64,000 nucleotides of DNA from an uncultured Dokdonia sp. (GTDB lineage: Bacteria; Bacteroidota; Bacteroidia; Flavobacteriales; Flavobacteriaceae), in assembly GCA_947503305.1 (NCBI GenBank), contig CANNDF010000001.1:806001-870000 (forward strand), written 5' to 3'. The notes below the pieces were generated by a model. It saw nothing but the letters and a program-made list of their open reading frames with translations, was not told the DNA's origin and did no database searches. Position numbers and translations under genes: made by a program. This document shows positions 18,053-37,963 of the stretch, piece by piece (the first letter of the stretch is position 1; every line of letters begins with the position of its first letter).

Positions 18053-18070
18053 AAGAGTACCTAACTAGAT

Positions 18071-18568: not shown

Positions 18569-18732
18569 TTAAAATGATGATATAAATATAACTATCCCTA
18601 TAGCAAATGTCTAGTTTTTTTGTTTTTTGTTAACGTATAGTATCGTCAAAAAAATAATCATTTCTATATGAATATTGTATTTTCTATAGCATTTTACTCT
18701 TATGATTGAAAGAATGACAATGTCAAAAGAGA

Positions 18733-21319: not shown

Positions 21320-21342
21320 TAAAGTAAATGAAAACTTTGAGA

Positions 21343-22080
21343 TTAATCACTGACTTGCTCAATGATTAATACCGTTTCTACAATAGTATAACTACCTCCA
21401 CATCCTAAACAAGGTCTTACTTCCATCTGTACAGTATCTGATGCAGATTTTTGAATTACGATAGTTCCTACAATTGTTCTGGTATTACTAGTTGCAGTAG
21501 CGTATGTAATATCAGTACGTTCATTTATAAACTGATCATCTATAAATATTGTAAAGTTATTTGATCCAGAATTTCCAGTAAGTGTATAGCCTATAGTAAA
21601 TGAAAAACGATAGGTGCCGTCCTCAGGAACAGTATACGTATCTGTTGTTAGATTAAACGCTCCATCGTCTACATTTAAATTATTGAAGTTGATAGCAGTA
21701 ATAGGGTCACCATCAAAGAAGGTCTGATTAACACCAGTGACTGTTGGAGCAGATACTACGTGAGGGATAAACTCACCAGATTCTACAATTGCTATTTGAT
21801 CCCAGCGACTACCATTCCATGTATAAAATCGGTTAGCAATGACATTATCGGGGCTTGTGCCTGCATTTACTGTATTATACACCATCAATCCTATTGCAGG
21901 GGAGGTGACAGGAGAAGCCATATTTGTGGCAGACAATTCAACTCTAGGAATTAAAATTCCAGTATCAGTACTTGAAATATCAAGGGCCGCACTGGCATCT
22001 GGAGATGTTGTATTAATTCCAACCTGTGGATAACATATATATCCAACTAGTGCTAAGAAAATAATAAGAGGAGCTTTCAT
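21343..22080 (-). CDS. Secreted C1q/TNF-like fibre protein
   Basis: A 245-residue protein with a short signal peptide (ending near YICYPQ). The N-terminal part has the bacteroidetal fibre stem signature: VGINTTSPDASAALDISS, TGILIPRVELSATN, GLMVYNT and FYTWNGSRWDQI. The C-terminal 140 residues look like a C1q/TNF-like jelly-roll head (VPEDGTYRFSFTIGY, NNFTIFIDDQ, VQMEVRPCLGCGGSYTI). Such proteins are usually trimeric surface or secreted fibres. It converges with the EEP gene across 23 bp; a functional link is not apparent. Confidence 0.7.
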   Translation of the reverse strand: MKAPLIIFLALVGYICYPQVGINTTSPDASAALDISSTDTGILIPRVELSATNMASPVTSPAIGLMVYNTVNAGTSPDNVIANRFYTWNGSRWDQIAIVESGEFIPHVVSAPTVTGVNQTFFDGDPITAINFNNLNVDDGAFNLTTDTYTVPEDGTYRFSFTIGYTLTGNSGSNNFTIFIDDQFINERTDITYATATSNTRTIVGTIVIQKSASDTVQMEVRPCLGCGGSYTIVETVLIIEQVSD

Positions 22081-22347: not shown

Positions 22348-22361
22348 GCTTTCGCGAAAGC
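22348..22361. repeat. Palindrome GCTTTCGCGAAAGC, copy 2
   Basis: An exact copy of the 14-bp palindrome, intergenic here, in the 400-bp gap between the divergent C1q-like and NTPase-GDPD genes. Confidence 0.8.
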
Positions 22362-22403: not shown

Positions 22404-22451
22404 TATTACGGGAAACCGTAATAGACTATAACTTTAAAATCACTAAAATTG
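22404..22451 (+). promoter_or_regulatory. Inverted-repeat operator TTACGG-N4-CCGTAA with promoter box
   Basis: TATTACGG-gaaa-CCGTAATA (22404-22423) has perfect 8-bp arms. It is followed 22 nt after the 6-bp core by TAAAATTG (22444-22451), a one-mismatch version of the flavobacterial -7 box TAnnTTTG, 30 nt before the ATG of the NTPase-GDPD gene. The repeat sits where a -33 element would be, as for an activator site. The same arrangement recurs near 29.05 and 30.01 kb. Confidence 0.6.
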
Positions 22452-22481: not shown

Positions 22482-25400
22482 ATGAAATCAAAAGCTACCC
22501 TTTTATTTATTACCGTACTATTGATTTTAATATTTGTTAGAATTCAAGTATTAGGTCAAGGGTTTATTCATGTTGCCATATGGTTGGTCAGTTTATTCCT
22601 GATTTCGTTTTTTAGAAAATATATATTCAAGAGGTCTTCCAAAGGTACTATTGATGACCTCATGCTCTCCAAGAAAAAAGAAGATTTTATTTTGGAAAGA
22701 TTAAGGAGTCAGGCTCTTGATCGCTGTACAACAACCTTAAAGGGAGCTACTAAAAATCTTCAGTATATAGAAACCCGTAATTGGCGTTTGCATAAAGAAG
22801 GGACAAAAAACGAAATACACAATGGATCCTTATCAGATGTTTTACATGCTGTCAAACTCAATCAAAAAAATAATTTTATTGTTTTTGGAGAATCAGGAGT
22901 AGGAAAGACTTTTGCTGTTTTTGATTACATCCGAAAACGGATTGATACTGATCCTAAATTTGCTCCTTTATTTATTTCTCTTTCCGACTGGAATGGAAAA
23001 AAAAGCCTTAGTCAATGGACCATCAATAAGGCTTCTAAGATATATCACTTGGATAAAAAAAAGGTAGCTCTCGGACTTAAGAGAGGGCTGTTATTTCCAA
23101 TTTATGATGGACTTGATAGAGTAAAAGAAGGAAGTACGATACCGTTATTTAAAGAGTTAATGACGTTGACATCCGATATTTCCATTGCATTAGTAATGAA
23201 AACGGAAACCTATAAAAAATTAAAAAATGAGCTCACATCTATTGATGAACAATGGGAATTACCGTATCATTTATTTGAACTTAAAGCGCTAAAACCACAA
23301 CAAGTAGAAGACGTTTTAAAAGCAAATAAAGAACATCAAAAATTGGAAATATTTCGCACCAACCCTAAATTTAAATATGTTTCTAGATATCCGCTGTTTT
23401 TAAATTTGATGATTGGGATAGATGCAAAGTTTATAAAGAATAATTTAGGAGCTGATGATTTATCACATGAGCATTTTTTTAAGCAGATATGGAAGTGGTA
23501 CGAGTTAAGGATGATCGATAATTCTGAGGAGTTATCACTCAAAAGAAAAATAAAGATTAAGGTATGGTTGCGCAAAATAGCTAAAAATACAGGAACCTTT
23601 TTTATGGAAGAACTTCAACCCTCTTTTCTTGAATTTAGAGGGTCCAAAGTCCTATATTATATGACAACTCGATTGTTGGGAGCATTACTCGTTTGTGGAG
23701 CTGCAGGTTTATTTTTGGCCGGACTTTTTGATTTTTGGGATGCAGCTATTATTGGAGGGATCGTAACCGCACTTATTGATCTCATTAAAATATATTTTAA
23801 CAAGTCATATACGTCTGTAGAATCTTTTTTGAAAACCAAAGGATATACACATATTCCTCCAGTAGTAAATATTTTGAAACGAACGATTCCTTTGATTCTC
23901 GTTTTAGGTATTTACTATGGATTTACAACACCTCGATCTCAAGAGTCTGGGGGGGAGATGTTGCTGGGAGGTCTGTTTTCAATTACCGAAGCTGTTGTAG
24001 GCATTCTGATAGGGATATTACTATCTCTATTTTTTGGAGCCAGAAGTAATTGGCAACACAATCATTTTGACATAAGACCTGTTGAACGAATGAAAGGAAG
24101 TCTTAAGAACTATTTTATTTCTGGATTTGCGGGAGGTTTACTATTGGGAGTGATCGTAGTACCTGTATTTTATGCATTTAATCTTTTCACCAATGATGAG
24201 TCCTCAATAAACAGATGGCTCGATCAACAATTATATGTTCATGATAAATATCTTTTTGCCGGATTTGCCGGATTTTTCTTAGGATATCTTTTCTTTGGAT
24301 TATTTGGCTTTTTACAAGGAGATAAAGTAATCTTAAGAAAAAACGAAAAATTAGAAGTAACAAAGCGTACTCCAATAAAAAAATCGATTTTTAATGGTCT
24401 CAAAGCATCGCTTATCTTTAGTTTAGTAACAGGAGCCCTTTTAGGTTCGTATATTGGTATTACAGAAGTAGAAATTAAAGCAGTATTTAAAGCATTGATT
24501 ACGGCTGGGGGCTTTGGAGTTCTCGCTTTTGCATGGTTTGGAGGTTTGGATGCTATTTGCCATGGGGTATTGCGCGGTATTCTTGCCTTAGAATTTGGAA
24601 ATCGATTAGTCAGTAAATCTTTTTTACACAAACTTTCAGAGATAGGATTTATACGATCGGTAGGGACAGGTTATGAATTTATACACCCTTCCTTAAGAGA
24701 CTATTATAAAAATAAAATGGGAGTACAAAAACAAAAACCACGCATGTTCATCATTCCTATTGTACTGTTAGCAGTACTACTAATTCCTGTTGGGTTAAAA
24801 TTGGCTTCAAGATTTCAAAATGAATCTCATTGGCAAAATGAGTATGGATTTAATACAAACATAAACAGTACCTATATACACCATTATAATGGTGCTAAAA
24901 ATAGATTTATAGTTAAGAATATAGAAGATAGTCTGGATAGACTAATTCGAATAAAAACAAGTGGGAAAATAAAATTGGGCTCCTTTGTAGGGCTAGCATC
25001 TTCAACAGGAACAAAGGCAGGGTTTTTAGGGATGAGTTTAGGAGATACCTGGAATAGATCGGGATTGGAACATCATAATCATGGGGCTCTGGTCTTTCGA
25101 AAAAATAATGGGCCTTGGATAGGCTTTCCGGAAAATGGGATATGGGATTATGGACAGAGTAAATCATATATGGACTTTACAATAAAAAACGGAGACATAT
25201 TTGAGGCGCTCATCAATGATAAAGAATGGGAAAATAATTCAGGAATAGTAGAGATGACTTTTGAAAATGTAAATAAAATAGGAAAACAACCCAAAATAGT
25301 GGCTCATCGGGGAGGAGCTGTAATGGCTGAAGAAAATTCTATGGAAGCTATAAAAAAGGCGATACAGCTAGAAGTAGATATGATAGAAATAGATATCCGA

Positions 25401-25979
25401 ATAACTAAGGACGGTCATCTGGTTCTAATGCATGATAAGAGTGTAAATAGAACTACTGATGGTAAAGGATATCTAAAAAAGATGACATTTGAAGATCTTA
25501 AAAAATTACAGCTAAAAAATGGGGAACCGATCCCTACTTTAGAAGACGTACTGGATTTGATTTCAAATCATTCTATAAAACTGTTAATTGAAGTAAAAAC
25601 AGGAAAAAACTACAATCCCATTCTCGAGAATTTAGTTGCTCTAATTAAGAAGAAGAGCATGGAGGAGCAAGTAGCTATATTTTCATTTAACAAGCCTTTT
25701 TGTAAAGATCTAAAAAATCGCTTTCCAGAATTTACAGTGGGGACATTTGTATTGGGCCCTTTCAATCTAAAAGAACTTCCTAATGTAGATGCCATAGGAG
25801 TACACTATCATAGTTTATCTGTATTCAAAAAGTGGCATAAAAAACTAAAAAAACAATATGGCGAAATATATGCCTGGAATGTAAATTCCAGAAAATCAAT
25901 GCAACGACTTATAAATAATGGGATAGATGCTATAATTACTGATGATCCAAAAAAGCTTCAAGACATGCTTAGTCAATAG
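22482..25979 (+). CDS. Membrane NACHT-like NTPase fused to a glycerophosphodiester phosphodiesterase domain
   Basis: A 1165-residue fusion. Two N-terminal membrane helices (about residues 6-45) precede a STAND/NACHT-like NTPase with P-loop GESGVGKT (136-143), a Walker-B-like stretch LLFPIYDGLDRV and a conserved downstream part (LKALKPQQVEDVLKAN, SRYPLFLNLMI). From about 385 to 705 there are many membrane helices (LLGALLVCGAAGLFLAGLF, IPLILVLGIYYG and others), then one more near 760. An extracytoplasmic linker leads to a complete GDPD domain (938-1165) with His942 (VAHRGG), Glu969 and Asp971 (EIDIR) and His984 (LMHDKS), the expected catalytic set. The GDPD part hydrolyses glycerophosphodiesters or related lipids in known members. 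Coupling to a sensor NTPase is unusual and suggests a regulated lipid-acting effector. Confidence 0.8.
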   Translation: MKSKATLLFITVLLILIFVRIQVLGQGFIHVAIWLVSLFLISFFRKYIFKRSSKGTIDDLMLSKKKEDFILERLRSQALDRCTTTLKGATKNLQYIETRNWRLHKEGTKNEIHNGSLSDVLHAVKLNQKNNFIVFGESGVGKTFAVFDYIRKRIDTDPKFAPLFISLSDWNGKKSLSQWTINKASKIYHLDKKKVALGLKRGLLFPIYDGLDRVKEGSTIPLFKELMTLTSDISIALVMKTETYKKLKNELTSIDEQWELPYHLFELKALKPQQVEDVLKANKEHQKLEIFRTNPKFKYVSRYPLFLNLMIGIDAKFIKNNLGADDLSHEHFFKQIWKWYELRMIDNSEELSLKRKIKIKVWLRKIAKNTGTFFMEELQPSFLEFRGSKVLYYMTTRLLGALLVCGAAGLFLAGLFDFWDAAIIGGIVTALIDLIKIYFNKSYTSVESFLKTKGYTHIPPVVNILKRTIPLILVLGIYYGFTTPRSQESGGEMLLGGLFSITEAVVGILIGILLSLFFGARSNWQHNHFDIRPVERMKGSLKNYFISGFAGGLLLGVIVVPVFYAFNLFTNDESSINRWLDQQLYVHDKYLFAGFAGFFLGYLFFGLFGFLQGDKVILRKNEKLEVTKRTPIKKSIFNGLKASLIFSLVTGALLGSYIGITEVEIKAVFKALITAGGFGVLAFAWFGGLDAICHGVLRGILALEFGNRLVSKSFLHKLSEIGFIRSVGTGYEFIHPSLRDYYKNKMGVQKQKPRMFIIPIVLLAVLLIPVGLKLASRFQNESHWQNEYGFNTNINSTYIHHYNGAKNRFIVKNIEDSLDRLIRIKTSGKIKLGSFVGLASSTGTKAGFLGMSLGDTWNRSGLEHHNHGALVFRKNNGPWIGFPENGIWDYGQSKSYMDFTIKNGDIFEALINDKEWENNSGIVEMTFENVNKIGKQPKIVAHRGGAVMAEENSMEAIKKAIQLEVDMIEIDIRITKDGHLVLMHDKSVNRTTDGKGYLKKMTFEDLKKLQLKNGEPIPTLEDVLDLISNHSIKLLIEVKTGKNYNPILENLVALIKKKSMEEQVAIFSFNKPFCKDLKNRFPEFTVGTFVLGPFNLKELPNVDAIGVHYHSLSVFKKWHKKLKKQYGEIYAWNVNSRKSMQRLINNGIDAIITDDPKKLQDMLSQ

Positions 25980-25986: not shown

Positions 25987-26844
25987 TTAACTTCCTAATT
26001 CAGAAATGGACTCAAGGAGAGAGTCATCGATATCATGATTACTTACGATATCTATTCGATACGTTTCAATAGCTTGAAAAAGATCCTGTTCAAACAGGAG
26101 TTGATTATCTTCTGTATTTATAAAAAGAAGCCCCAAAATTCCGAAACGGCCGTAGGCTCTTTTAGAATCTCGAATCTTTTTATCCAATTTTAACAAGCGT
26201 TCTTCAATAAGATTTTCAAACAAAGGGATTAACTCTTTTTCCTTCCAGTCTTCGAGCATGGATCGCAATTGTCGCTGTGCTAGTTCGCCTAGGAGTTTTT
26301 CAAATTTTGGTAAATTAAAATTGGCAAGAAGATCTTCAAAATCTTCTTTTTTTATTTCCAGACGTGTTATGGGTTTTGGGATTTTCTTTTTTGAGACTGG
26401 GTATTTACCACTTCTATTGGATATATGTTGAGGGCTATGAACATATACTTCTTTTTCATAATCGCGTAGTGGTCTTGGTTTAAAATCAATTAACCAAGCA
26501 ATAAAATCTACATTGACGATTGCGGTCGTATGAGAAGGATCTTCTTGATACCGACTTATAAATTGAGAAATCCGTTTATATTTTTTATAGGCACCTATAT
26601 CTTTTACCAGTTTGTCATAATTCCTGGGGACATAGGCTATTTGTTTGGGGTTGAAGTTTAAAAAATTATTTACAATCCGAGCATCTTTTCCTAACTGGCT
26701 TTTGTCACTCAATAGATATAAAGCCAAACTCTTAACATTTTCTGGACTGGGACTGTTTAAATAAATAGAGAGGTTCTCGCCGTTACGCTTTTCGGAAAAA
26801 TCTTCCATCACAGTCTCTAAATAACTTCTATCTAAATCGCGCAT
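25987..26844 (-). CDS. Hypothetical protein
   Basis: The protein, about 285 residues, has no recognisable family. I place the start at MRDLDRSYLETVMED rather than 20 codons upstream, because the upstream extension is aromatic-rich and unlike a normal N-terminus. On the minus strand TAATTTTG lies just before this start, a TAnnTTTG box that would give an almost leaderless mRNA. The protein is charged and mostly helical, without signal peptide, with basic stretches (SGKYPVSKKKIPKP). It converges with the NTPase-GDPD gene (7-bp gap), so it is probably separately controlled. Confidence 0.55.
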   Translation of the reverse strand: MRDLDRSYLETVMEDFSEKRNGENLSIYLNSPSPENVKSLALYLLSDKSQLGKDARIVNNFLNFNPKQIAYVPRNYDKLVKDIGAYKKYKRISQFISRYQEDPSHTTAIVNVDFIAWLIDFKPRPLRDYEKEVYVHSPQHISNRSGKYPVSKKKIPKPITRLEIKKEDFEDLLANFNLPKFEKLLGELAQRQLRSMLEDWKEKELIPLFENLIEERLLKLDKKIRDSKRAYGRFGILGLLFINTEDNQLLFEQDLFQAIETYRIDIVSNHDIDDSLLESISELGS

Positions 26845-27031
26845 GGCGAAAAGTACAAAATTAATGTTGAAAAACCGGAACTCATGGAACCCATGGAACA
26901 GCACTTGATGCAGTCACCAAACAATAAGATATTTGAGTATCAATATTGAAGTAGCTACGAATTACAGGGTCGCTTAAAACTGTGGGGGCGGCCCGAAACC
27001 CACTATATGTTTAACGTATAAAAGGTAGATT

Positions 27032-27181
27032 ATGAATAAGAAATTCTTAGGATTAGTCGGATTTTTAGTTCTTCTGCTTATGGCTTCATGCGATATAAAT
27101 GGGATCGAAGAACAAGAGATCCTTCGTGCAGCAAGTAAAACAGATGGCACACAGACAAGCCCAAAAGGGGGAAAAGATTAA
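27032..27181 (+). CDS. Small lipoprotein, 49 residues
   Basis: The start is MNKKFLGLVGFLVLLLMASC: a short signal peptide with a clear lipobox (LMASC, Cys20). The mature part is only 30 residues and ends in a polar tail, TQTSPKGGKD. The gene is followed by an 11-bp hairpin, and the TPR histidine kinase starts 88 bp downstream. The context resembles loci in which a short exported peptide lies next to its sensor, so it may be a sensor ligand or accessory. This is inference; it may equally be a structural small lipoprotein. Confidence 0.65.
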   Translation: MNKKFLGLVGFLVLLLMASCDINGIEEQEILRAASKTDGTQTSPKGGKD

Positions 27182-27188
27182 ATAACCA

Positions 27189-27213
27189 GGGTTACTCTTA
27201 GCAAGAGTAACCC
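27189..27213 (+). terminator. Hairpin between small lipoprotein and kinase genes
   Basis: GGGTTACTCTT and AAGAGTAACCC form a perfect 11-bp stem with a 3-nt loop. The following TTAAATTC is only weakly T-rich, so it may terminate partly, attenuate, or protect the short upstream mRNA and make its level exceed that of the kinase. Confidence 0.7.
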
Positions 27214-27269
27214 TTAAATTCAATTATGTCTGCAATATATAGTAACTTTAAAGTCATAATCTTCTTCTA

Positions 27270-29150
27270 ATGAGTATATACAGGGCTTTAATGATCATAA
27301 TAGGGGTATTCATAGTAAGCTCTTGTGAATCAAAAAAACCAGAGGACATCTCTCAACAAAGAGACAACAAAAAAGAAATAGTTTCTCATAGGGTCCCTAA
27401 CAAAATCAGTAGTAAGGATATTGATACCCTGCTTCTTGAAAAAATTATTGAAAATTCAGAATTTTACAGCACTACAAACCAGAAAGATTCCATCTTTAAA
27501 TATGATAGTCTCTTGAAGAATCTGGCAACAAAAGCAAATTTAGTATCCTATCGTGCAAAAGGAGAATCCTATCTTGCCTATGATTTTAGAGAAGTTGAAA
27601 AATATGATAGTGCTTTTTATTACTACAATAAAGCCAAGAACACCTATAAAATACTGAAAGATAGCACTCAGGTTGGGAAAAAACTCATTGAAATGGGAAA
27701 AATCCAATACCGTCAGGCAGATTATTATGGATCCAAAGAATCGATTACAGAAGCCCTTGAGTATCTCCATTCCGAAGAAGATGCATCCTATTGGCCAGTG
27801 GCAATGAATGAACTAGGGAATAACTATTTTGCATTGAAAGATTATAAAAATGCTGAAAAGAGTTATGAAAAGGCAATTTATTATGAAGAGAATCTTCACA
27901 ATAAAATCTTATACAAAAACAATATGGCAAATGTTTATGCCGAGAATAATCAGGAAGAAAAGGCGATAGAAATATTAGAAACCGTTCTTAATGACCTCCC
28001 TTCTGATTTTGATACGATTGAATATGCACGATTGGTTCACAATTTAGCCGTTGCAAGATGGAAATGGGGTACTACCGATGTATATCAGGATTTTCAAAAA
28101 GCACTTCAAATAAGAAAGGCCCATAATGATCAGTGGGGTTTGCTGTCAAGTTATACGAGTTTGCTGTATTATTATGGCGATATAGATCCAAAATTGGCAA
28201 TACAATATGCAGATTCAGTAATACAAATTTCAAAAAAAACGCATACTCCTAATTCTGAAAAAGAAGCGCTAGCAGCCCTGTTAAAATTACAGCCTCAAAA
28301 CCAAAAAACTAAAGATCGGTATATATTCATAAGTGATAGTTTAACTGAAAACGAACTCAAGGTAAAAAATCAGTACGCCTTTTTTCGATATCAAAATCAA
28401 TTAGAAAAAGACCAAATACTTACACTTCAAGCTCAAAGTGCCAAACGGAAAGCTGAACTCGCTGAGCAAAAGAATCAAAAAATTATTTTTCTAGGAGTAA
28501 TAGGACTCCTCCTGATGATTACCATCTTTATAATTTATTACTTAAAACAAAGTAGTCACAAACAAAGAATACAAGAACGGCATAGTACAGAGAAGAGAAT
28601 AAGTCAACAACTACATGACGAACTTGCCAATGATGTTTTTGGGTTAATGATGAAAATTGAAAATAAAGAATCATCCAATAATATAGAGCACCTCAAACAA
28701 TTAGAAAATATCTATTCCAGAGTACGTAATATATCCCATGAAAATAACCCCATACATTCTAGCGACGAATTTTTAGAAGATTTAAAAAACCTTATAAATT
28801 CCTACAATAGTAATGATGTAAAGATAATTACCAAAGGACTTGAAGATATTCATTGGAATCGTCTCGAAGAAGAAAAATGTATCGTGATATACAGAACGGT
28901 AAATGAACTATTGGTCAATATGAAAAAACATAGCCAGGCTTCTTTAGTAGGGCTACAGTTTTTATATCATAAAAAAAACATCAGATTATCCTATAAGGAT
29001 AACGGGATTGGTTTTCCAGAGGATATAATTTTTGGATTTGGACTTAATAATACGGTTTCCCGTATTCACAATAACAAAGGGACCTTTAATTTTACATCAA
29101 AACAAGGGCGCGGAATTTCTGTAGAAGTTTTGGTTCCTGCTAAATTTTGA
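27270..29150 (+). CDS. TPR-containing sensor histidine kinase
   Basis: A 626-residue protein. The N-terminus has a lipoprotein-like signal (GVFIVSSC). Residues about 60-370 are TPR repeats (YYNKAKNTYKILKD, ALKDYKNAEKSYEKAIYYE, AVARWKWGTTDVYQDFQKALQ), followed by a coiled coil, a single membrane helix (IIFLGVIGLLLMITIFIIYY) and a HisKA_3-type kinase. The phospho-acceptor is His449 in QQLHDELANDVFGL; the ATPase domain has the N box (VNELLVNMKKHS), G1 (YKDNGIGF) and a FGLNN/GRG end. The layout places the TPRs outside the cytoplasm as the sensor. It is followed by its response regulator after 7 bp. The stimulus is unknown. Confidence 0.88.
   Translation: MSIYRALMIIIGVFIVSSCESKKPEDISQQRDNKKEIVSHRVPNKISSKDIDTLLLEKIIENSEFYSTTNQKDSIFKYDSLLKNLATKANLVSYRAKGESYLAYDFREVEKYDSAFYYYNKAKNTYKILKDSTQVGKKLIEMGKIQYRQADYYGSKESITEALEYLHSEEDASYWPVAMNELGNNYFALKDYKNAEKSYEKAIYYEENLHNKILYKNNMANVYAENNQEEKAIEILETVLNDLPSDFDTIEYARLVHNLAVARWKWGTTDVYQDFQKALQIRKAHNDQWGLLSSYTSLLYYYGDIDPKLAIQYADSVIQISKKTHTPNSEKEALAALLKLQPQNQKTKDRYIFISDSLTENELKVKNQYAFFRYQNQLEKDQILTLQAQSAKRKAELAEQKNQKIIFLGVIGLLLMITIFIIYYLKQSSHKQRIQERHSTEKRISQQLHDELANDVFGLMMKIENKESSNNIEHLKQLENIYSRVRNISHENNPIHSSDEFLEDLKNLINSYNSNDVKIITKGLEDIHWNRLEEEKCIVIYRTVNELLVNMKKHSQASLVGLQFLYHKKNIRLSYKDNGIGFPEDIIFGFGLNNTVSRIHNNKGTFNFTSKQGRGISVEVLVPAKF
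29049..29094 (+). promoter_or_regulatory. Inverted-repeat operator inside the kinase gene, before the response regulator
   Basis: AATACGG-tttc-CCGTATT (29049-29066) has perfect 7-bp arms and the same TACGG-N4-CCGTA core as the sites near 22.4 and 30.0 kb. TAATTTTA (29087-29094), one mismatch from TAnnTTTG, lies 21 nt downstream of the core, 63 nt before the response regulator start. It may be an internal autoregulated promoter. It lies in coding sequence, so coincidence is possible. Confidence 0.45.
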
Positions 29151-29157
29151 AATTAAA

Positions 29158-29826
29158 ATGTTTAAAAAAGTTTTAGTAGTAGAAGATTTAGATAGTATTG
29201 GGTATGGAATATCTCATATGCTCGAAAAACAATTAGGAGTTGATGAAGTAGTGCTCTCGCAATATTGTAGTGATGCCTATTTAAAATTTATACACTCAGA
29301 ACGAGAAAGTATTCCTTTTGATTTATTAATCACTGATTTGTCTTTCCATAAAGACCATAGAGATGATAAAATAGCAAATGGGAAGCACTTAATAAAACAA
29401 ATCCGGGCTCTAGGGTATAGTACTCCAATAATTGTGTGTTCCGTAGAAGAAAAATTAACAACAATTAGAAATCTGTTCAAACAAGATGGGATATCAGGGT
29501 ATATCGTAAAAGGAAGGCAAGGGTTGAGATACTTAGCCAAAGCGATAGAAACCATAAAAAAAGGGAGTACCTACCTTTCCCCTCAATTATCTGACTTGAT
29601 GCATCGCAAAGAAGTTTTTGAAATTAAGGATTATGATATAAAACTCCTATATTATTTGTCTAAAGGACAATCACAAGAAGAAATATCCCGATACCTCAAT
29701 CAGAAAGGTGTGTCACCTAACAGTTTAAGTTCTATTGAAAAACGATTGAACCGCTTAAAAGACGAACTTAAGGCAAACTCTACGATTCAATTAATAGCAA
29801 ATGCTAAAGACATAGGCTTGATTTAA
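29158..29826 (+). CDS. Response regulator with LuxR-like output domain
   Basis: A 222-residue protein. The receiver domain (1-125) has the acidic pair in VVEDLDS, phospho-acceptor Asp60 (LLITDLSF), the conserved Ser/Thr in IIVCS and Lys in YIVKGRQG. The output domain (about 150-222) follows the NarL/LuxR HTH plan (DIKLLYYLSKGQSQEEISRYL...SLSSIEKRLNRLKDEL). It is the partner of the upstream kinase. LuxR-type dimers bind inverted repeats of 16-20 bp, so the TACGG-N4-CCGTA sites at 22.4, 29.05 and 30.0 kb are candidate targets; this link is inferred. Confidence 0.88.
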   Translation: MFKKVLVVEDLDSIGYGISHMLEKQLGVDEVVLSQYCSDAYLKFIHSERESIPFDLLITDLSFHKDHRDDKIANGKHLIKQIRALGYSTPIIVCSVEEKLTTIRNLFKQDGISGYIVKGRQGLRYLAKAIETIKKGSTYLSPQLSDLMHRKEVFEIKDYDIKLLYYLSKGQSQEEISRYLNQKGVSPNSLSSIEKRLNRLKDELKANSTIQLIANAKDIGLI

Positions 29827-29848
29827 TACAACTTCATTTACTAATAAT

Positions 29849-30009: not shown

Positions 30010-30054
30010 TTACGGGATCCCGTAACTACTTCCTGTGTATAGTTGCTAGGTTTG
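30010..30054 (+). promoter_or_regulatory. Operator TTACGG-N4-CCGTAA and promoter of the M48-ABC operon
   Basis: TTACGG-gatc-CCGTAA (30010-30025) is a perfect 16-bp palindrome. TAGGTTTG (30047-30054), an exact TAnnTTTG -7 box, follows after 21 nt. No TTG -33 element is present; the palindrome occupies that place, which suggests activator dependence. The first gene starts about 80 nt downstream. The rest of the 29827-30132 gap holds only the preceding hairpin. Confidence 0.65.
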
Positions 30055-30132: not shown

Positions 30133-30945
30133 ATGGAAAAATTGATAACCATATGCTGTTATATTCTTATCACAGGCATTAGTATTTTAAATACAAATGC
30201 ACAGGAATTATTTGATACTAAGGATTCAGTTTTAAAAAATAAGGACATCATAGGTTGTGGTCATTTACTTGATGGCCCTTCCTCATATCTTAAAAAGATT
30301 GAGAACAGATCTTTAGATACGATGCTTGAGCTTACAGAAGATCAAAAGAAACGCATAGGAAAGAATAATTATGAACAAGTAGTAAAAAATAATACGATAC
30401 TTGTTGAGTATGAAAATAAGGAGAACATCATACAAACTTTTGAAAATATCAAATCAAAAGTAAATTCTGAAATAGGCTATAATCTACATATCATCGATTC
30501 TCATAATATCAATGCCTTTACCATGCTAGGAGGACATATATATCTAACAACGGGTTTATTGTCCTATGTAGAATCTCTTGATGAATTGGCTTTTATCATG
30601 GGGCACGAAATCGGGCACAATGAGGCGTATCATTTAGAAAGGAAAATAAAAAAAATAATGATTACATCTACCTATTTTGGAGCTACAGGTATCGATGAAT
30701 TCACAAAAATAGCTATTGATTTAAATCATAAGTTCTCGGCGCCATTTGACCAAATAGATGAGTATGAAGCTGACAAATATGGTTTCGAAATATCCAAAAA
30801 AGCAGGTTACGATGTAAATAAATTTGCAGATTTTTTTAAAAGGATGGAAAAGAATGAGAAAACATCCATACTTCAAAAACTAAATGCGACCCACCCTTTT
30901 TCCAGAGATAGAAGAAAATGTCTAGAAAGCTATAATAATCAATAA
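30133..30945 (+). CDS. M48-family metallopeptidase, exported
   Basis: A 270-residue zinc protease. A signal peptide (ending near LNTNAQ) is followed by a catalytic domain with AFTMLGGHIYLTTGLL, the zinc site HEIGH (His158, Glu159, His162) and the third-ligand region EYEADKYGFEISKKAGYD. It resembles BepA/LoiP-type periplasmic proteases more than HtpX, because it has no membrane helices. Such proteases act in outer-membrane quality control. It is the first gene of an operon with 6 bp to the ABC transporter gene. Confidence 0.88.
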   Translation: MEKLITICCYILITGISILNTNAQELFDTKDSVLKNKDIIGCGHLLDGPSSYLKKIENRSLDTMLELTEDQKKRIGKNNYEQVVKNNTILVEYENKENIIQTFENIKSKVNSEIGYNLHIIDSHNINAFTMLGGHIYLTTGLLSYVESLDELAFIMGHEIGHNEAYHLERKIKKIMITSTYFGATGIDEFTKIAIDLNHKFSAPFDQIDEYEADKYGFEISKKAGYDVNKFADFFKRMEKNEKTSILQKLNATHPFSRDRRKCLESYNNQ

Positions 30946-30951: not shown

Positions 30952-32712
30952 ATGAAGGAAAAAAATCTATCCATTCAGGCAATAGGGATCACCAAAAAGT
31001 ACCCTAAAAACAAAATTGGTCTACAACCGCTTTCACTGGATATAAAACAAAAAAGTTTTGTAGCCCTTATGGGACCTTCAGGTTGTGGAAAATCTACCTT
31101 GTTAAAGTGCCTTAACGGAGATAATCCAGCAACCTTAGGAGAAGTATATATCAATGGACTTTCCTTAATTGATAATTATGATGAGGTGAAGAAAAGTATA
31201 GGATATGTCCCTCAAGACGATATTATACATAGAGAGTTGAGCGTATATAATACACTTTTCTATGCAGCAAAACTACGATTGCCAGATGGCACATCCAATG
31301 AAGAGATAAAACAACGTATCAATAAAGTGTTGAAGAGTTTAAAACTTAATCAACATGATCAGGGAGATTCCCAGCATCAAAAAAATATCAAGCATAAAAA
31401 AATAAAGGAGCTATCTGGAGGACAAAGAAAAAGGATTTCAATCGCTGTTGAACTACTTACGGAACCTAGTATTTTATTTTTGGATGAACCTACATCTCCA
31501 TTAGACCCGGAAACTATTGATAGTTTTCTAAAAAGCCTGCAAGATCTTGCCAAAGAAGGAACTTCGATCATCATGGTTACTCATAAACCGGAAGACCTTA
31601 ATTATGTAGATGAGGTAGTATTTCTGGGGGTAAAAGGGCATCTAGTATATAAAGGAATTCCAGAAACTATTACAAGTCACTTTAATGTAGACAGTATCAT
31701 TGAAGTGTATAGTAAAATGAGTGATCTCGAAGAAGTAAAAAAAAACTATATCAAACCCAAAGAAACCTCTCATTTATTAAATACCAATCCCAAGCCTACT
31801 AAGAGCAAAGCTCATTCCAATCTACGACAGCTTTATTGGTTGTCAAAACGATATTTAAATATAAAAATCAATGATGCCAATAACCTACTATTACTTCTTT
31901 TACAGCCTATTATTATAGGAGGATTGGTAAGTTTAGTATTTACAGAATTCAGGATCGGTGTTCTATTCTTAACAGCAATCTCGGCAATTTGGTTCGGAGT
32001 AAGTAATGCCGCCAAAGAAATTGTTGGGGAATTACCCATATACAAAAGAGAGCGAATGTATAATCTTAATATAAATACATATATCGTCTCAAAAGTGATC
32101 ATATTAGCTCTTATCGCTTTGATTCAATTGATTGTATTTGTTGCCATCATTCATTTCAATTTTAAATTTAATACAATCTCAGAATTCCCAGAAACCTACC
32201 TAAGACCTTTTTGGGATGCGGTAGGATTTCTATTTATGATATCATGTTCTGCAACGCTGATAGGGTTATTTCTGTCTTCATACTTCAATACTACAGAAAA
32301 GGTAATGACAGTAGTTCCTATTACTCTTATGCCACAAATAATGTTGGCCGGAGTAATGACAAAATTGGATAGCCGTATCATTGAGATTTTGAGTTTTTTT
32401 ACCCTAGGAAGGTGGGGAACCGAAGGTTTTGCAAGGTTGCAAGATGACTATTTTAAAACCAACAACTTAGGAGCAGAAAGTATTATTATACCTGAATACA
32501 ATCCAGATGGATATCATAAAAACGATTGTAAATGCGAAGCCACAAATGCACTGGATCAATTGGCATTGCATGATGAAAGCCTCACAGATCAAGGGATCCT
32601 GATAGGAGATTTGTTTAATAGTATAACAGCAAATAGTATAGCAGTACTGGTGTTGAGTATTATCATGTATTTGCTCATTTTTATTTCCCTAAGCAAAAAA
32701 GATAGTATATGA
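30952..32712 (+). CDS. ABC transporter, fused ATPase and ABC-2 permease (ABCG-like)
   Basis: A 586-residue half-transporter with an N-terminal ATPase and a C-terminal permease. The ATPase has Walker A GPSGCGKST (41-49), signature LSGGQRKR (154-161), Walker B ILFLDEPTSPLDPE and the switch His in MVTHKPE. The permease (about 290-586) has about six helices of ABC-2/ABCG order (LLLLQPIIIGGLVSLVF, VIILALIALIQLIVFVAII, ITLMPQIMLAGVM and others), with a soluble loop before the last helix. This order is typical of ABCG-type exporters that move lipids or hydrophobic compounds. The neighbouring lipoproteins suggest envelope transport; the substrate is unknown. Confidence 0.88.
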   Translation: MKEKNLSIQAIGITKKYPKNKIGLQPLSLDIKQKSFVALMGPSGCGKSTLLKCLNGDNPATLGEVYINGLSLIDNYDEVKKSIGYVPQDDIIHRELSVYNTLFYAAKLRLPDGTSNEEIKQRINKVLKSLKLNQHDQGDSQHQKNIKHKKIKELSGGQRKRISIAVELLTEPSILFLDEPTSPLDPETIDSFLKSLQDLAKEGTSIIMVTHKPEDLNYVDEVVFLGVKGHLVYKGIPETITSHFNVDSIIEVYSKMSDLEEVKKNYIKPKETSHLLNTNPKPTKSKAHSNLRQLYWLSKRYLNIKINDANNLLLLLLQPIIIGGLVSLVFTEFRIGVLFLTAISAIWFGVSNAAKEIVGELPIYKRERMYNLNINTYIVSKVIILALIALIQLIVFVAIIHFNFKFNTISEFPETYLRPFWDAVGFLFMISCSATLIGLFLSSYFNTTEKVMTVVPITLMPQIMLAGVMTKLDSRIIEILSFFTLGRWGTEGFARLQDDYFKTNNLGAESIIIPEYNPDGYHKNDCKCEATNALDQLALHDESLTDQGILIGDLFNSITANSIAVLVLSIIMYLLIFISLSKKDSI

Positions 32713-33626
32713 AAAAGTATCTAATATATACGATTCTATGCCTATTCTTCCTTAGTTCATGCGGAGTCTCTGAGCCCGTATTTTTAGCTAGTGATAATTT
32801 GGAATTTAAGAGTGTAAAAGATTCTATTTTCAATTTCTCCATTGACACTTATATATACAATCCTGCAAGACTTACCTATCGATTAAAAGAACTGAATTTT
32901 GAGGTTCAATATGAAAAAGAAAAGATAGGTTATGGAAAACTGATACATCCAGTCAAGATAATAGCCAAAGATACTATGGTGCTTCCTATGGAATGCAGTA
33001 TGAATCTGGATCGACTCCAAGAGAAACATAAGGAGTTATTAAGAAATCAAAACGCAAATTTTATTCTAGAAGGGACCGCCGTCGCAGTTCATCCATTGAA
33101 AACAAGCAGTAAAGATATTTCACTCAATTTAGATTATGACGTCAAAAAAATTATTGCCGATAATATGTTTAATAATAGCGTGACTGTAGAACAAATCGGG
33201 ATAGAAAAACTCAATCCTTTTTCCAGAAATGGACTCACAAAGTCAGCATTACTTCTCAACATTGAATTACAAAATCGTCAGCACTTTGATTTTCAAATAG
33301 AACAGATAGAAATTTCCTTACGATCTCAAGAAACCAATAAAATAGCATTAAAAGGATTTATGAACACACCTATAAATGTCAATAGTCTAGAAAGCATTAA
33401 AATCCCTGTTGAAGTAGAATCCAATAACTTCAATGTACTTCAGGATATGGGAAGGTTTATTCTTGGGAAAGGAGCTATAAAATACATAGGCACTGGTTAC
33501 GTGACCATCAGAATTCAAGAATATCAGTTTGAAATACCCGTACAGAAGACATTTAATATAGAAGCAAAACTATTTGGGAATACGGGGTCAAAAATACGTA
33601 TTCCCCTATTACAAAATAATAAATAA
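32709..33626 (+). CDS. LEA-type/WHy-like lipoprotein
   Basis: A 305-residue lipoprotein (LFFLSSCG, Cys19) that overlaps the ABC gene by four bases (ATGA). It appears to have two LEA14/WHy-like beta domains: NFSIDTYIYNPARLTYRLKELNFEVQYEKEKIGYG and, later, LLNIELQNRQHFDFQIEQIEISL with a second IPVEVESNNF stretch. LEA14 domains are immunoglobulin-like folds in envelope stress proteins. The coupling to the transporter gene suggests a partner role. The family call is by pattern only. Confidence 0.65.
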   Translation: MKKYLIYTILCLFFLSSCGVSEPVFLASDNLEFKSVKDSIFNFSIDTYIYNPARLTYRLKELNFEVQYEKEKIGYGKLIHPVKIIAKDTMVLPMECSMNLDRLQEKHKELLRNQNANFILEGTAVAVHPLKTSSKDISLNLDYDVKKIIADNMFNNSVTVEQIGIEKLNPFSRNGLTKSALLLNIELQNRQHFDFQIEQIEISLRSQETNKIALKGFMNTPINVNSLESIKIPVEVESNNFNVLQDMGRFILGKGAIKYIGTGYVTIRIQEYQFEIPVQKTFNIEAKLFGNTGSKIRIPLLQNNK

Positions 33627-33657
33627 TACAGCGTTCAGCATTTAGGAATGATTTATA

Positions 33658-34620
33658 ATGGAAACACCACACAGAAAAAAATCTCGATCCAGAAGAAGAA
33701 AAAAACGAAGGCTTCCCCTATTGATTTTGACCGTAATGGTTGCAATGCTAGCAGCTAGTTATTTTTATTTTTCTAACCTCAATAAAATAAGAGCAATAGC
33801 TCTGGCTAGGGAAGGGACGCATTGGGGATTTATCGATAAAGAAGGAAAAAAAGTAATCCCTTTTGAATATGAGATGGCATGGAAAATATCAGAGGGGCTT
33901 GCATTAGTGAAGAAGAATGGAAAATGGGGATTTATAGATAGCAATAATACCATTGAGATCCCAATAATATACCAAAATGCATACCCTTTTTCAGATAGTC
34001 TTGCCGCCATACAAATGGATACAAATTACTGGGGGTTTATAGATCATAAGGGGATTACTGTTATAAATGCAGAGTATGAAGACGCCGGATCTTTTTCAGA
34101 AGGACTTGCTGCTGTCAAAAAAGAAGGGAAATGGGGGTATATAAATACATCAGGAAAGGTCATCATCCCTTTTGAATATTCTAGTGCTTACCTGTTTTCG
34201 GAAAGTCTAGCTCCCGCCGGGGTTAATGGACGAGAGGGATTTATTAATAAGCACAATCAGATCGTTATCCAACCGCGCTTCGATTTTGTTTTACCCTTTT
34301 CAGAAGGTCTAGCCCCAGTAAATGTTGAGGGTAAATGGGGATTTATAGCAAAAAATGGGAAAGTCATTATCGAACCCAAGTACGAACAAACCTGGGGATT
34401 TTCTGAAGATCTGGCCCCAGTCAAAATTCAAGGGAAATGGGGGTTTATCAATAGAAAGGGAGAAGAAATCATTCTACCTCAATATCAAGATGCCTACGTT
34501 TTTTTGAATGGACTGGCACCTGTAAAAGTCAATGGACGACAAGGGTTTATAAATAAAGAACAAGAAGTAACCATACAATTTACATATGACTATGTAGACG
34601 CTTTTTATGACACTAAATAA
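33658..34620 (+). CDS. WG-repeat protein with N-terminal membrane anchor
   Basis: A 320-residue protein. A very basic N-terminus (KKSRSRRRKKRRL) precedes one membrane helix (LLILTVMVAMLAASYFYF). The rest is eight WG repeats of about 34 residues, each with the pattern GKWGFI...G..IIP..Y..A..FSEGLAPV. The topology puts the basic tail in the cytoplasm and the repeats in the periplasm. WG repeats form beta-propeller-like binding surfaces. The last copy lacks the full FSEGLAPV and ends in a YDYVDAFYDTK tail. Confidence 0.85.
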   Translation: METPHRKKSRSRRRKKRRLPLLILTVMVAMLAASYFYFSNLNKIRAIALAREGTHWGFIDKEGKKVIPFEYEMAWKISEGLALVKKNGKWGFIDSNNTIEIPIIYQNAYPFSDSLAAIQMDTNYWGFIDHKGITVINAEYEDAGSFSEGLAAVKKEGKWGYINTSGKVIIPFEYSSAYLFSESLAPAGVNGREGFINKHNQIVIQPRFDFVLPFSEGLAPVNVEGKWGFIAKNGKVIIEPKYEQTWGFSEDLAPVKIQGKWGFINRKGEEIILPQYQDAYVFLNGLAPVKVNGRQGFINKEQEVTIQFTYDYVDAFYDTK

Positions 34621-34647
34621 AACACATAATTCCAAAAACAAACGAAC

Positions 34648-35487
34648 ATGAAAATTAAAAACATCTTTATCATTTTAACAGTATTTGTAGGAGTACTGGC
34701 CTATGGACAAGAAAAACCTACAATTGGTTTACAATCTATTAAAGCATTAAATCCATCAAAAGATTATATAGAAGCTGAGTTAACCTTTCAGAAAATAAAA
34801 AAGTTACTAGTCGATTCCAGAAGCTTTAGTGTTTTGGATAGAGAAAGTCTGGGTATAGTGCTCACGGAACAAGAAATACAGACTCAAATCAGCTCTATAA
34901 ATGCTCAGGTAATAGATCAGGGCCGAGTAGCAGGAGCCGAGAATGTCGTCGGAGGAAAACTTATTAATGTCGAATATCAGAAACTACTTGGATCTAAGTC
35001 ATTACGACGGGCAGCAGTAACTTTTTCATTGGATATTATTGATGCAGAAACCTCAGAAACATTGGAGACAGAAACCTTCAAGATAGGACTGCTTAATCTT
35101 AAAAATGTAGGAGGAGTCACAAATCAGGAAGCCTATAGCACGTCATTAAAACTAATGACAAAAAAAATACAAAATTTCCTCAATAAGTTTATCTCTAAAT
35201 CAATAGCCATACTATCCATAGAAGAACAAAAAAATGGAGTGGCTAAAATGATTTTAGTAAATACTGGAAAAGCAACAGGAGCAAAAAAGAACAATAAAAT
35301 AAGTATTTACGAACTGTCGACCATGAATATAGGAGAAAAAACAACCCAACGTGAAAAGTGGGTGGCAGATGTAAAAATAGAGGTAGTAGAAGGAGATGAA
35401 TTGTCTATTGCCAAAGTAACTAAAGGTGGCAAAGAACTTTTAGAAAAATTCAATGCGCAAGCAAAACTCATTTGTAAGTCTAAATAA
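34648..35487 (+). CDS. CsgG-like exported protein
   Basis: A 279-residue protein with a signal peptide (MKIKNIFIILTVFVGVLAYGQ). Residues about 40-165 resemble the periplasmic domain of CsgG-type outer-membrane factors: LLVDSRSFSVLDRESLGIVLTEQE, the GRVAGAENVVGGKL motif, and LRRAAVTFSLDIIDAETSE. No lipobox Cys is present and the membrane-spanning hairpins of true CsgG are not obvious, so I use 'like'. The C-terminal part is a beta-rich module (VAKMILVNTGKATGAKKNNKISIYEL). It starts a run of four exported proteins. Confidence 0.65.
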   Translation: MKIKNIFIILTVFVGVLAYGQEKPTIGLQSIKALNPSKDYIEAELTFQKIKKLLVDSRSFSVLDRESLGIVLTEQEIQTQISSINAQVIDQGRVAGAENVVGGKLINVEYQKLLGSKSLRRAAVTFSLDIIDAETSETLETETFKIGLLNLKNVGGVTNQEAYSTSLKLMTKKIQNFLNKFISKSIAILSIEEQKNGVAKMILVNTGKATGAKKNNKISIYELSTMNIGEKTTQREKWVADVKIEVVEGDELSIAKVTKGGKELLEKFNAQAKLICKSK

Positions 35488-35494
35488 TATGATT

Positions 35495-35950
35495 ATGAAA
35501 AAAAGTATTGCACTCATACTAATAGTTTTACTTGCTTCATGTGGTAGTACTAGCTATGGTAATTTTGATTCGGCTATGGTCAATTACGTGTCAAATAATG
35601 GACAACAATCCCTCACTGTAAGTAGTTCGCAGGTTGGAGGAAATCAAGATGAAGCCATTTTTTTTGCAAAAAGACTGGCATTTCAAAACCTGTTTTTCAG
35701 AGGAATTTCAAACTCTCCATTCCACAAACCTTTAATAGGAATCAATGAGCAAGAAGAAAGTAGAAAACACAAAGACTATTTAACCACTTTTTATAACCAA
35801 CGTATGGGGACATTCATTACCTATTCCAGCGAGTCGGTATCAAAAGTAAAAGGCGGAGGCAAATTAGCGAGGGTAGATATGACGATTAATATGCTGGCTC
35901 TAAAGAAGGATTTAGAAGAACATCAGATCATTAGAAAATTTGGATTATGA
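35495..35950 (+). CDS. Small lipoprotein of the CsgG-like cluster
   Basis: A 151-residue protein. I use the Met of MKKSIALILIVLLASC because it yields a clean lipoprotein signal; the longer frame starts inside the previous gene. The mature part (SSQVGGNQDEAIFFAKRLAFQNLFFRGI...) resembles small partners found next to CsgG-like genes, but I do not assign a family. It ends with an ATGA overlap with the next gene. Its location is probably the outer membrane. Confidence 0.6.
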   Translation: MKKSIALILIVLLASCGSTSYGNFDSAMVNYVSNNGQQSLTVSSSQVGGNQDEAIFFAKRLAFQNLFFRGISNSPFHKPLIGINEQEESRKHKDYLTTFYNQRMGTFITYSSESVSKVKGGGKLARVDMTINMLALKKDLEEHQIIRKFGL

Positions 35951-36879
35951 AAAATATAAAGTTAGCAGTAGCGATCATCCTTTTTGTCCTCCTACAGACA
36001 GTGGGTTCCAGAAAAGGATTAGCACAAAAAGATTGCAATCAAGGCAATAATCTTCAACCCAGTGTCATGGTCTTACCAAGAACTGTGCAAGGAGAAGATC
36101 TACGATCTATCATGGACGAACAACCCGAAGTGCGCTATGCCGTTTCCAAAATAAAACAAGCCTTCGATGATCGAGAATTCACAACCATGGATTTTGAAAC
36201 AACCCTGACGTCTATTACTAGGGATGAAACAGTAACCAAAGATTCACAAACAGAATTTAAGAATCGCCTATTTCGAAATATCCCTTCAGATATCATAGTA
36301 GAGATAGACGTAATTATGAACAATTCAGGAAAATTAAATCGAGCTACAGTCGTGCTGGAGGCAAATGTCACAGACAATGGAAATTCGATGGCAAGCGTGT
36401 CACTGGCTGGAAATTACTTTCAAACAGAAGATAAAATACTCTTGATAGGATCTGCCTTAAGAAAGGTAAACAAGGACTCCGAGAATAGTGAGCTGTTGAT
36501 TGATGAATTTTTAAGGAAGATTTATGAAAAATGGGGAGAAATGCACAATACCGGAAAATCGGTAAAAATGGAGTTCAGTCTTTCTCAAGACGCAACGATT
36601 ACAATGAATGATGAGGTGGCCTCCAGGGGAGAAAAGCTAAAATATGTAATCGAAGATTGGTTGGAAGAAACAGCTCTGGATAATTACTATGTGGTCACCT
36701 CAGTAACAGAAACGAAGTTGATCGTATCAGACTATAGATATCCCATACGTGATCCTAAAAATTGTACCAATATGACGGCACGAAAAATCGAACGGAAACT
36801 GGATCGGTTTTTTGATAAAATAAACCTCCCTGTAAAGTTTAATAATAGCCGAGGTTCCCTTTATATCAACATTTTATAG
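35947..36879 (+). CDS. Exported protein, DUF6175-like
   Basis: A 310-residue protein with an N-terminal signal peptide (MKNIKLAVAIILFVLLQTVGSRKGLAQ). Residues 35-45 (PSVMVLPRTVQ) and the alternating beta/helix body (FKNRLFRNIPSDIIVEIDVIMN) suggest a DUF6175-type protein. I am not certain of the family. It overlaps the upstream gene by four bases, so it is translationally coupled. Its periplasmic role is unknown. Confidence 0.5.
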   Translation: MKNIKLAVAIILFVLLQTVGSRKGLAQKDCNQGNNLQPSVMVLPRTVQGEDLRSIMDEQPEVRYAVSKIKQAFDDREFTTMDFETTLTSITRDETVTKDSQTEFKNRLFRNIPSDIIVEIDVIMNNSGKLNRATVVLEANVTDNGNSMASVSLAGNYFQTEDKILLIGSALRKVNKDSENSELLIDEFLRKIYEKWGEMHNTGKSVKMEFSLSQDATITMNDEVASRGEKLKYVIEDWLEETALDNYYVVTSVTETKLIVSDYRYPIRDPKNCTNMTARKIERKLDRFFDKINLPVKFNNSRGSLYINIL

Positions 36880-36889
36880 CATACGTATC

Positions 36890-37963
36890 ATGAAAAACAA
36901 AATAATCATAACGGTAGTTTTTCTTCTGATTACTATTTGGGGGATAAACGCTCAAAAGACGGAAGAAAATGAAGACAATCTCAACATATCTGTCGTTATC
37001 CCCGCACAAATAGACGGATTAACCTATGGGCAACTTTCAAAATTACAGTCAAAGATGTTGAGAATGGTCAGTAATTACGGAGTTGCAGGAGAAGGGTATA
37101 CCGATAAGTTTATCATATATCCAAAATTTGAAATATACGATCATAAAATCGTTGAAGGGATGAAAAATGTACATGTCCTGGATGTTGAACTCAATCTTAT
37201 TATTAAGGAAGTAAAGACAGGAAGTGTATACAGTGTGTTTAGTCAGGAAATAACAGGCGATGGATACTCCAAAAAAGAAGCTATAAATCAAAGTATCTCG
37301 CAAATAAAAACAAGAGGTGATAATATCAAGACCTTTTTACAAACAGCCAAAACAAAAATCTTAGACTATTATCGTGCTAATTGTGATCGATTATATGATG
37401 AAGCAAACACAATGGTCCGTCAAAAAAGATATAGCGAAGCCATTGCCTTACTCTATCCGGTACCAAAACAAGTAGGAGGAGACTGTTATCAAAAAATTCA
37501 GAGAAAACTGGACGAAGCCTATGACGGATACTTAAATAAGACCTGTGAAAAAAATCTGGTAAGAGCCAAAGCAGAAATTTCTAAAAACAATAAAGGAACC
37601 GCCTTGGAGATATTAGGATCTATAGAAGTAGAATCCAATTGTCATGAATCCGCACAAGAACTAAAATCAGAAATAGCAAAGAAAGAAGAGCAAAAAGGAA
37701 AACAAAAAGAAGATGTAGCTATAGTAAGTCCGCCAAATTCAGAACAGCGTGAAGAAAAGAAAGAAGTTGAAGCAACAACAGCATCCGCTACCAAAATAGC
37801 AGAAACCGATAAAGATAAACCACAAACGACAACACCTACCTCCGATAAAAAAGAGGGAACACGAAAAACAAAAAGAAGAGAACGAATGAAAGAAATTGCT
37901 CAAGTAGAGTTTAAACGTACACGACACCAAGGAGAAATAGATAGGGTCATCCGAGAAGGGTGA
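36890..37963 (+). CDS. Exported TPR-like protein, last gene of the operon
   Basis: A 357-residue protein with a signal peptide (ending near TIWGINAQ). Its first third (ISVVIPAQIDGLTYGQLSKLQSK) recalls the style of the preceding protein. A helical-repeat part (DRLYDEANTMVRQKRYSEAIALLYPVPKQVGGDCYQ...) with paired cysteines follows, and a Lys/Glu/Thr-rich disordered tail (KEEQKGKQKED...TPTSDKKEG) ends the protein with a strongly basic end (KTKRRERMKEIAQVEFKR). The gene ends the 30-38 kb operon, and a terminator follows 66 bp later. Confidence 0.55.
   Translation: MKNKIIITVVFLLITIWGINAQKTEENEDNLNISVVIPAQIDGLTYGQLSKLQSKMLRMVSNYGVAGEGYTDKFIIYPKFEIYDHKIVEGMKNVHVLDVELNLIIKEVKTGSVYSVFSQEITGDGYSKKEAINQSISQIKTRGDNIKTFLQTAKTKILDYYRANCDRLYDEANTMVRQKRYSEAIALLYPVPKQVGGDCYQKIQRKLDEAYDGYLNKTCEKNLVRAKAEISKNNKGTALEILGSIEVESNCHESAQELKSEIAKKEEQKGKQKEDVAIVSPPNSEQREEKKEVEATTASATKIAETDKDKPQTTTPTSDKKEGTRKTKRRERMKEIAQVEFKRTRHQGEIDRVIREG

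Follow-up and report, generated by a model that had tools for sequence, protein, structure and literature searches.

The bNACHT and Avs antiphage proteins are single chains in which a central NACHT P-loop module is combined with other domains, as set out in PMC12169576 and in passages of PMC10907252. Passages of the latter also describe NACHT proteins diversified by diversity-generating retroelements, which have membrane segments and end in a C-terminal lectin (CLec) domain; for one such target both the NACHT and the CLec domain are predicted to be periplasmic. Here we analyze a 64,000-nucleotide stretch of an uncultured Dokdonia sp. (contig CANNDF010000001.1, positions 806,001 to 870,000; hereafter the window, which supplies the coordinates below) that carries, at 22482..25979 on the forward strand, a gene joining a NACHT core, membrane helices, a beta-rich domain and a GDPD phosphodiesterase domain. 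This fusion resembles the bNACHT and Avs proteins in linking a NACHT module to other domains in one chain, but differs from them, as those passages present them, in its 11 predicted helices, its predicted periplasmic phosphodiesterase and its lack of recognised sensor repeats. With the NACHT-CLec proteins it shares the NACHT core and membrane segments, while no GDPD is named for them in the passages of PMC10907252. No NACHT-GDPD fusion is described in the passages of PMC7159879, PMC8195603 and PMC10907252, and none of the open-licence PMC papers searched contains both words, NACHT and GDPD; three that combine NACHT with the full name of the enzyme are unrelated, judged by title.

Architecture of the fusion protein

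The fusion gene runs from an ATG start through 1165 codons, with the frame open throughout. Its product begins with two helices (residues ~5-40; 22482..22601), followed by the NACHT core (residues ~126-400; 22857..23681; Walker A at 136-143 and Walker B, DGLDR, at 209-213) and a region of eight membrane helices (residues ~401-700; 23682..24581). Next comes a segment defined by alignment with relatives, GYEFIHPSLRDYY (residues ~701-750; 24582..24731), which we take to be a winged helix. A last helix (residues ~751-775; 24732..24806) leads to a beta-rich domain (residues ~776-935; 24807..25286) and the GDPD domain (residues 936-1165; 25287..25976), both predicted to lie outside. All helices were placed by hydropathy. 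Full-length relatives have the same arrangement at 58-64% identity (four aligned sequences) and ~33-34% (one), and because they share it the architecture is not a product of chance. This single-chain architecture is conserved, and very probably represents a STAND switch that spans the membrane and has its GDPD on the periplasmic side. A first-pass annotation of this DNA had proposed a P-loop NTPase, about ten membrane helices and a GDPD in one polypeptide, and had singled out Lys142 and His942. The open frame and the relatives bear out the joined domains, and both residues are as claimed, K142 in the Walker A motif and H942 in the GDPD HRG motif; the membrane region also stands, with the predicted number of helices now raised to 11. 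The window's own genome holds one full-length copy and two further matches to the GDPD region. An AlphaFold model of the whole protein was weak except in the NACHT and GDPD parts (mean pLDDT 61.7, pTM 0.37), and its membrane part was left out of all readings.

Profile comparison shows the P-loop core to be related to NACHT/STAND proteins. A profile of six GDPD-bearing proteins (the window's and L011-L015; residues 60-752) matches one built from seven NACHT proteins with transmembrane segments (NACHT-TM; L007, L016-L019, L022 and L030, from other Bacteroidota, an Anaerolineae metagenome-assembled genome and Baaleninema) with an hhalign probability of 100 and an E value of 4.6e-51. The match spans the P-loop and membrane region up to the winged-helix-like end. 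It agrees with the NACHT/STAND membership proposed in the first-pass annotation, and places the NTPase with NACHT-TM proteins rather than in a transporter or housekeeping family. Pfam NACHT was matched by 8 of the 13 aligned members (best E 1.9e-12); the window protein was not among them, with no match to PF05729 at E up to 1 and only weak, below-cut-off Pfam matches in its P-loop region.

The Walker A motif, GxxxxGK[ST], is kept in 13/13 aligned members (GESGVGKT in the window). The Walker B consensus is hhhhDGLDE, a form also seen in the NACHT-TM relatives; it has become DGLDR in the window protein and four close homologues and DGLDQ in L015, with both aspartates kept. A sensor-1 arginine is a further NACHT/STAND feature, and at this position we observe KT in the window protein and the same four homologues, SR or CR in seven relatives, and SR in L015. 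Read by eye, the frames of the NACHT-TM relatives end soon after the winged-helix-like segment, and the GDPD-bearing clade extends beyond it into the helix, the beta-rich domain and the GDPD. The NACHT-TM core also carries, by reading, a protein-kinase-like N-terminal part at L018:1462-4458, and different N-terminal parts again at L007 and L010.

The GDPD assignment is strong, with a Pfam match at residues 942-1157 (E 9.5e-38; 131.1 bits against a gathering score of 23.6). The catalytic set of GDPD enzymes comprises HR, E-x-D, a second H, and E and K; in line with the first-pass claim of an intact catalytic site, all eight residues checked are conserved, and H942, R943, E969, D971, H984, E1037 and K1039 are identical in 6/6 proteins. 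For the beta-rich domain a LecA-like (PA-IL-type) lectin identity was suggested by eye, but Pfam, PDB sequence and fold searches gave it no support.

Topology was assessed with a hydropathy scan (19-residue window averaged over six aligned full-length proteins, adjoining peak runs merged, no trained predictor), which placed two helices before the NACHT core, eight after it and one past the winged-helix-like segment. The inner loops would then hold 30 K+R against 10 D+E, and the outer loops 4 against 8. Because these counts obey the positive-inside rule, the NACHT core and winged helix are predicted to be cytoplasmic, and the beta-rich domain and GDPD periplasmic. The beta-rich domain ahead of the GDPD, and the GDPD's predicted position outside the inner membrane, were both absent from the first-pass annotation.

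Distribution and selection

The full architecture was found in seven genomes: that of the window, G229 (loci L005/L014), G995 (L011), G994 (L035), G1045 (L013), G1001 (L012) and G054 (L006/L015). The fusion is present in 5/71 genomes of a Flagellimonas-type genus and in 1/18 of the window's own genus, and the G054 protein, at ~33% identity, falls outside the close clade. Given this patchy occurrence the gene is, on genome comparison, accessory and not core, and the first-pass concern that its homologues might be core genes of the order falls away. Broader samples gave matches in 4/299 genomes of the family (including G129, whose frame has no GDPD) and 3/345 of the class (two of them weak). A profile search of the phylum sample matched 8/395 genomes, the window's and seven others. 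Profile searching of genome contigs recovered five full-length and two NACHT-TM loci, while a single-protein search of the same contigs gave no match. An origin on a mobile element was considered and rejected: of 514 plasmid and 355 phage records that match, not one covers 80% of its length, and the GDPD part accounts for the 20 matches listed for each. A profile search of IMG/VR likewise found no relative.

In two pairs of relatives the ratio of nonsynonymous to synonymous substitution rates (dN/dS) was 0.07 and 0.12 overall, the first pair being near saturation (dS 1.59). The NACHT part alone gave the same two values, and in the second pair dN/dS rose to as much as 0.67 over the first 60 residues.

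The gene block and its dyads

Immediately 3' of the fusion gene lies a convergent open reading frame (ORF), ORF-X, which encodes 305 residues of unassigned family (25987..26904, reverse strand) and is conserved in part among carriers. The forward-strand genes that follow encode a sensor-kinase-like protein with TPR repeats (27270..29150; HATPase_c below its cut-off), a response regulator (29158..29826), an M48 peptidase (30133..30945), an ABC transporter with ATPase and membrane parts (30952..32712), and LEA_2-type, WG-repeat, CsgG-like, 165-aa, DUF6175 and 357-aa proteins (32709..37963). The 11 genes from 25987 to 37963 have matches in the same order in 5/5 Flagellimonas-type carriers, and in all six close carriers the fusion gene heads the syntenic block. 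The upstream window genes tested (12308-22080) have no match in those five carriers, of which G994 and G1045 offer only ~1 kb of upstream sequence.

With the kinase of one carrier (L012) as query, some match turned up in 71/71 Flagellimonas-type genomes, and the top five scores all belong to carriers (559-1393 bits, against 485 for the next genome). The same 5/71 carriers have DUF6175 at 64-73% identity, and two others have it at 25-31%; elsewhere there is a 21% match in G054 and a 48% copy in an own-genus genome without the fusion. This last copy sits in a four-gene CsgG/165/DUF6175/357 module, so the module exists alone too. L105 likewise combines kinase, regulator and ORF-X in the absence of the fusion. 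By reading, the frame at L109:10578-11978 fuses an ORF-X-like N-terminal part with a membrane segment and a part resembling CsgG/LPP20; a core dyad lies ~110 bp upstream.

Two perfect copies of the dyad TTACGG-N4-CCGTAA lie in the window: TTACGGGAAACCGTAA (22406..22421), a candidate operator 61 bp before the ATG of the fusion gene, and TTACGGGATCCCGTAA (30010..30025), between the response regulator and the M48 gene. Shuffles of the window predict 0.00 exact matches. Both sites, before the fusion and before the M48 gene, are present in exact or core form (TACGG-N4-CCGTA) in 6/6 close carriers; the window's genome has five exact copies and each other close carrier one or two. We suggest that the adjacent two-component system probably regulates through this dyad. 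The block, with its shared operator-like dyad, had escaped the first-pass annotation. A near-dyad at 29050 with two mismatches was discarded as within chance (1.12 expected in the window). A separate perfect palindrome, GCTTTCGCGAAAGC, stands at 22348-22361 upstream of the fusion gene and is possibly a genome-wide repeat.

Across the family sample the exact dyad occurs in 141/397 genomes, with 305 forward sites against 96 of the reversed pattern (totals transcribed by hand from a listing and summed). It is missing from 5 of 14 genomes in a separate search, G054 included. We examined 72 sites, a part of the total (62 and 8 in fetched regions, 2 in the window), and 58 were intergenic though 77.7% of these regions are coding (binomial p 1.6e-25, the sites not being independent). 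For seventeen of the 58, no 100-aa ORF begins within 250 bp. A response-regulator gene was found in 19/64 non-window regions, and 13/70 exact sites outside the window follow a response-regulator homologue at no more than 300 bp. Nine loci (L100, L101, L106, L174, L177, L202, L206, L213 and L217) have a core site within the aligned kinase gene, 82-100 bp ahead of the regulator gene; such sites could partly reflect conserved codons.

Genes behind the dyad and a possible defence link

At seven loci the first gene behind the dyad is of defence type, at gaps of 50-142 bp. In the window's genome, dyads precede a GajA gene (PADLOC E 6.1e-289) and a gene whose 895-aa product matches an endonuclease effector (E 2.1e-13). 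In other genomes they precede an OLD-like ATPase (L168), a GajA nearly identical to the first (L169), Cas9 (L212; PDB E 1e-58), a HerA-like ATPase (L131; PADLOC E 4.6e-28) and a ZorA-like protein (L187; PDB ZorA E 5.1e-11), the last followed by a ZorB-like frame by reading. Three first genes match GajA/Old in PADLOC and, to judge by their sequences, are those at L127, L168 and L169; by reading, a GajB-like helicase frame comes next at L127 and L169. The 895-aa protein and a 345-aa partner frame (L125:3624-7342) lie behind two frames read as tyrosine recombinases, and this dyad-led pair may be an uncharacterised defence system. Also in the window's genome is a dyad-led operon (L126:3619-5036) of two genes, one for a 245-aa protein that is hydrophobic near its N-terminus and one for a stand-alone GDPD (E 1e-36). 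As a membrane-type protein and a GDPD, here separate, thus come together in a second dyad-led operon, defence might use GDPD as an output more than once. Dyads also precede lipoprotein-type genes, by reading. One further genome, with seven exact dyads, has dyad-led genes for a 1024-aa metallophosphoesterase-like protein (L165:1331-4402; by reading, no PDB match) and a 670-aa PHP-like ATPase (L166:4575-6584; by reading, with an ABC-ATPase-type match).

We compared 44 first genes behind the dyad with 124 neighbouring control genes, drawn from the same regions at >1.5 kb from dyads and shorter on average (276 vs 375 aa), against PADLOC. At E 1e-10 the targets matched 109 families and the controls, which included restriction-modification genes, 208, these being families and not distinct genes. 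The fusion protein itself matched no PADLOC family at E up to 0.1; among the 13 NACHT-TM members 7 match mad8 and 4 match PDC-S60, and the window protein matches neither. A phage- or stress-defence role, as first annotated, thus finds no backing in PADLOC for the fusion itself and gains some indirect support from the dyad, which precedes both the fusion and known defence genes. Nine neighbours compared with PADLOC yielded nothing but a weak TPR match (E 0.048).

Discussion

We propose that the fusion acts as an inside-out STAND switch, one that is inducible, has its GDPD in the periplasm and serves phage or envelope defence, a reading whose chances we consider evenly balanced. The adjoining sensor kinase and response regulator would detect envelope damage or infection, and the regulator, through the dyad, would induce both the fusion gene and the envelope operon (M48/ABC/CsgG). 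Self-association of the NACHT core might then follow from a trigger in the cytoplasm, and would cluster or free the periplasmic GDPD, whose targets at the outer leaflet would be glycerophosphodiesters or the head groups of lysophospholipids. The infected cell would be killed or arrested, or its envelope remodelled. A role in phage defence specifically falls slightly short of an even chance.

Several observations weigh against this proposal. ATP hydrolysis by the close-clade NACHT may be impaired, given DGLDR and the sensor-1 KT, and no sensor domain was recognised in the fusion protein. Beyond the first 60 residues, dN/dS gives no sign of an arms race. The block is made of envelope genes, not defence genes; in G054 no block gene was found within 8 kb of the fusion, and the exact dyad is lacking. 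Of the examined dyads, 14/72 fall within ORFs, a single recurrent gene of ~1270 aa accounting for five, and others precede, by reading, CsgG-like and TerB-like genes. Finally, since the control genes match defence models too, we claim no figure for defence enrichment.

Some of these observations would fit an envelope-stress regulon in which the fusion is an enzyme for phospholipid turnover or lysophospholipid clearing, with the NACHT as an ATP-dependent gate and no phage role. The M48 peptidase, ABC transporter, LEA_2-type, CsgG-like and DUF6175 neighbours, the further dyads ahead of CsgG-like and TerB-like genes, and the strong purifying selection all speak for it; the patchiness of the gene, the varied N-terminal partners of the NTPase family (by reading) and the dyads before Gabija, cas9 and ZorA-like genes speak against it. 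We regard this explanation as rather unlikely, and rate a role in envelope stress without phage defence the same. A similarly doubtful alternative treats the dyad as a general promoter element of the regulator family, with defence genes found there since defence islands are common and the function of the fusion unrelated. That the controls match defence models, and that the sites examined are only part of all, fits such an element; less easily accommodated are the seven loci, in several genomes and of unrelated systems, where a defence-type gene comes first behind the dyad.

GDPDs are commonly scavenging enzymes, and the NACHT could be a degenerate scaffold without ATP hydrolysis that merely anchors or clusters a GDPD scavenging glycerophosphodiesters. 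In the close clade, the replacement of E by R in Walker B and of SR by KT at sensor-1 would suit such a scaffold, but Walker A is intact in 13/13 members, the NACHT part evolves under constraint (dN/dS 0.07 and 0.12), and eight further helices are needless for an anchor, which together make this account improbable. Very remote, and largely refuted, is the idea that the fusion assists, anchors or triggers the contractile injection system (CIS) whose cluster begins ~5 kb after the block. The two are not co-inherited: a sheath match occurs in 6/80 genomes and in 0/5 Flagellimonas-type carriers, and three own-genus and two other genomes have a sheath match but no full-length fusion. The CIS cluster itself (window 39953-63463) encodes a sheath, two tube proteins, spike- and baseplate-type proteins, an AAA ATPase, a tape measure (CIS_TMP E 1.4e-103) and a DUF4280 PAAR-like protein, and is preceded by a gene for a GH18 protein with C-terminal hydrophobic stretches.

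If the predicted topology of our inside-out switch is true, an NLR-like switch controls a lipid enzyme that lies outside the cytoplasm, on the far side of the inner membrane, an arrangement we did not find in the open-licence PMC literature. The dyad also opens the question of whether one two-component system co-induces several antiviral systems in Bacteroidota. Joint induction of this kind is not described, as judged by titles and the opening lines of abstracts, in three open-licence papers found on the subject; the one that has TTACGG along with Bacteroidetes and response regulator concerns a Porphyromonas ferric uptake regulator. Tentatively, a Flavobacteriaceae kinase/regulator family might run, through the dyad, a dispersed defence regulon of Gabija, Zorya, cas9 and OLD nucleases together with a new inside-out NLR-like class, in which a cytoplasmic NACHT would fire a phospholipid-cutting periplasmic GDPD.

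Set beside known proteins, the fusion has kin on both of its sides. The NACHT-TM proteins match it from the P-loop to the winged-helix-like end, but unlike it they have no GDPD and carry differing N-terminal parts (DUF4062, kinase and CHAT by reading). The GDPD enzymes 2pz0, 3no3, Bacillus subtilis GlpQ (5t9c) and the Staphylococcus aureus lysophosphatidylglycerol phospholipase D (8ghh) share its fold and catalytic residues; judged by their entry titles they have no STAND NTPase attached, whereas the fusion protein has one.

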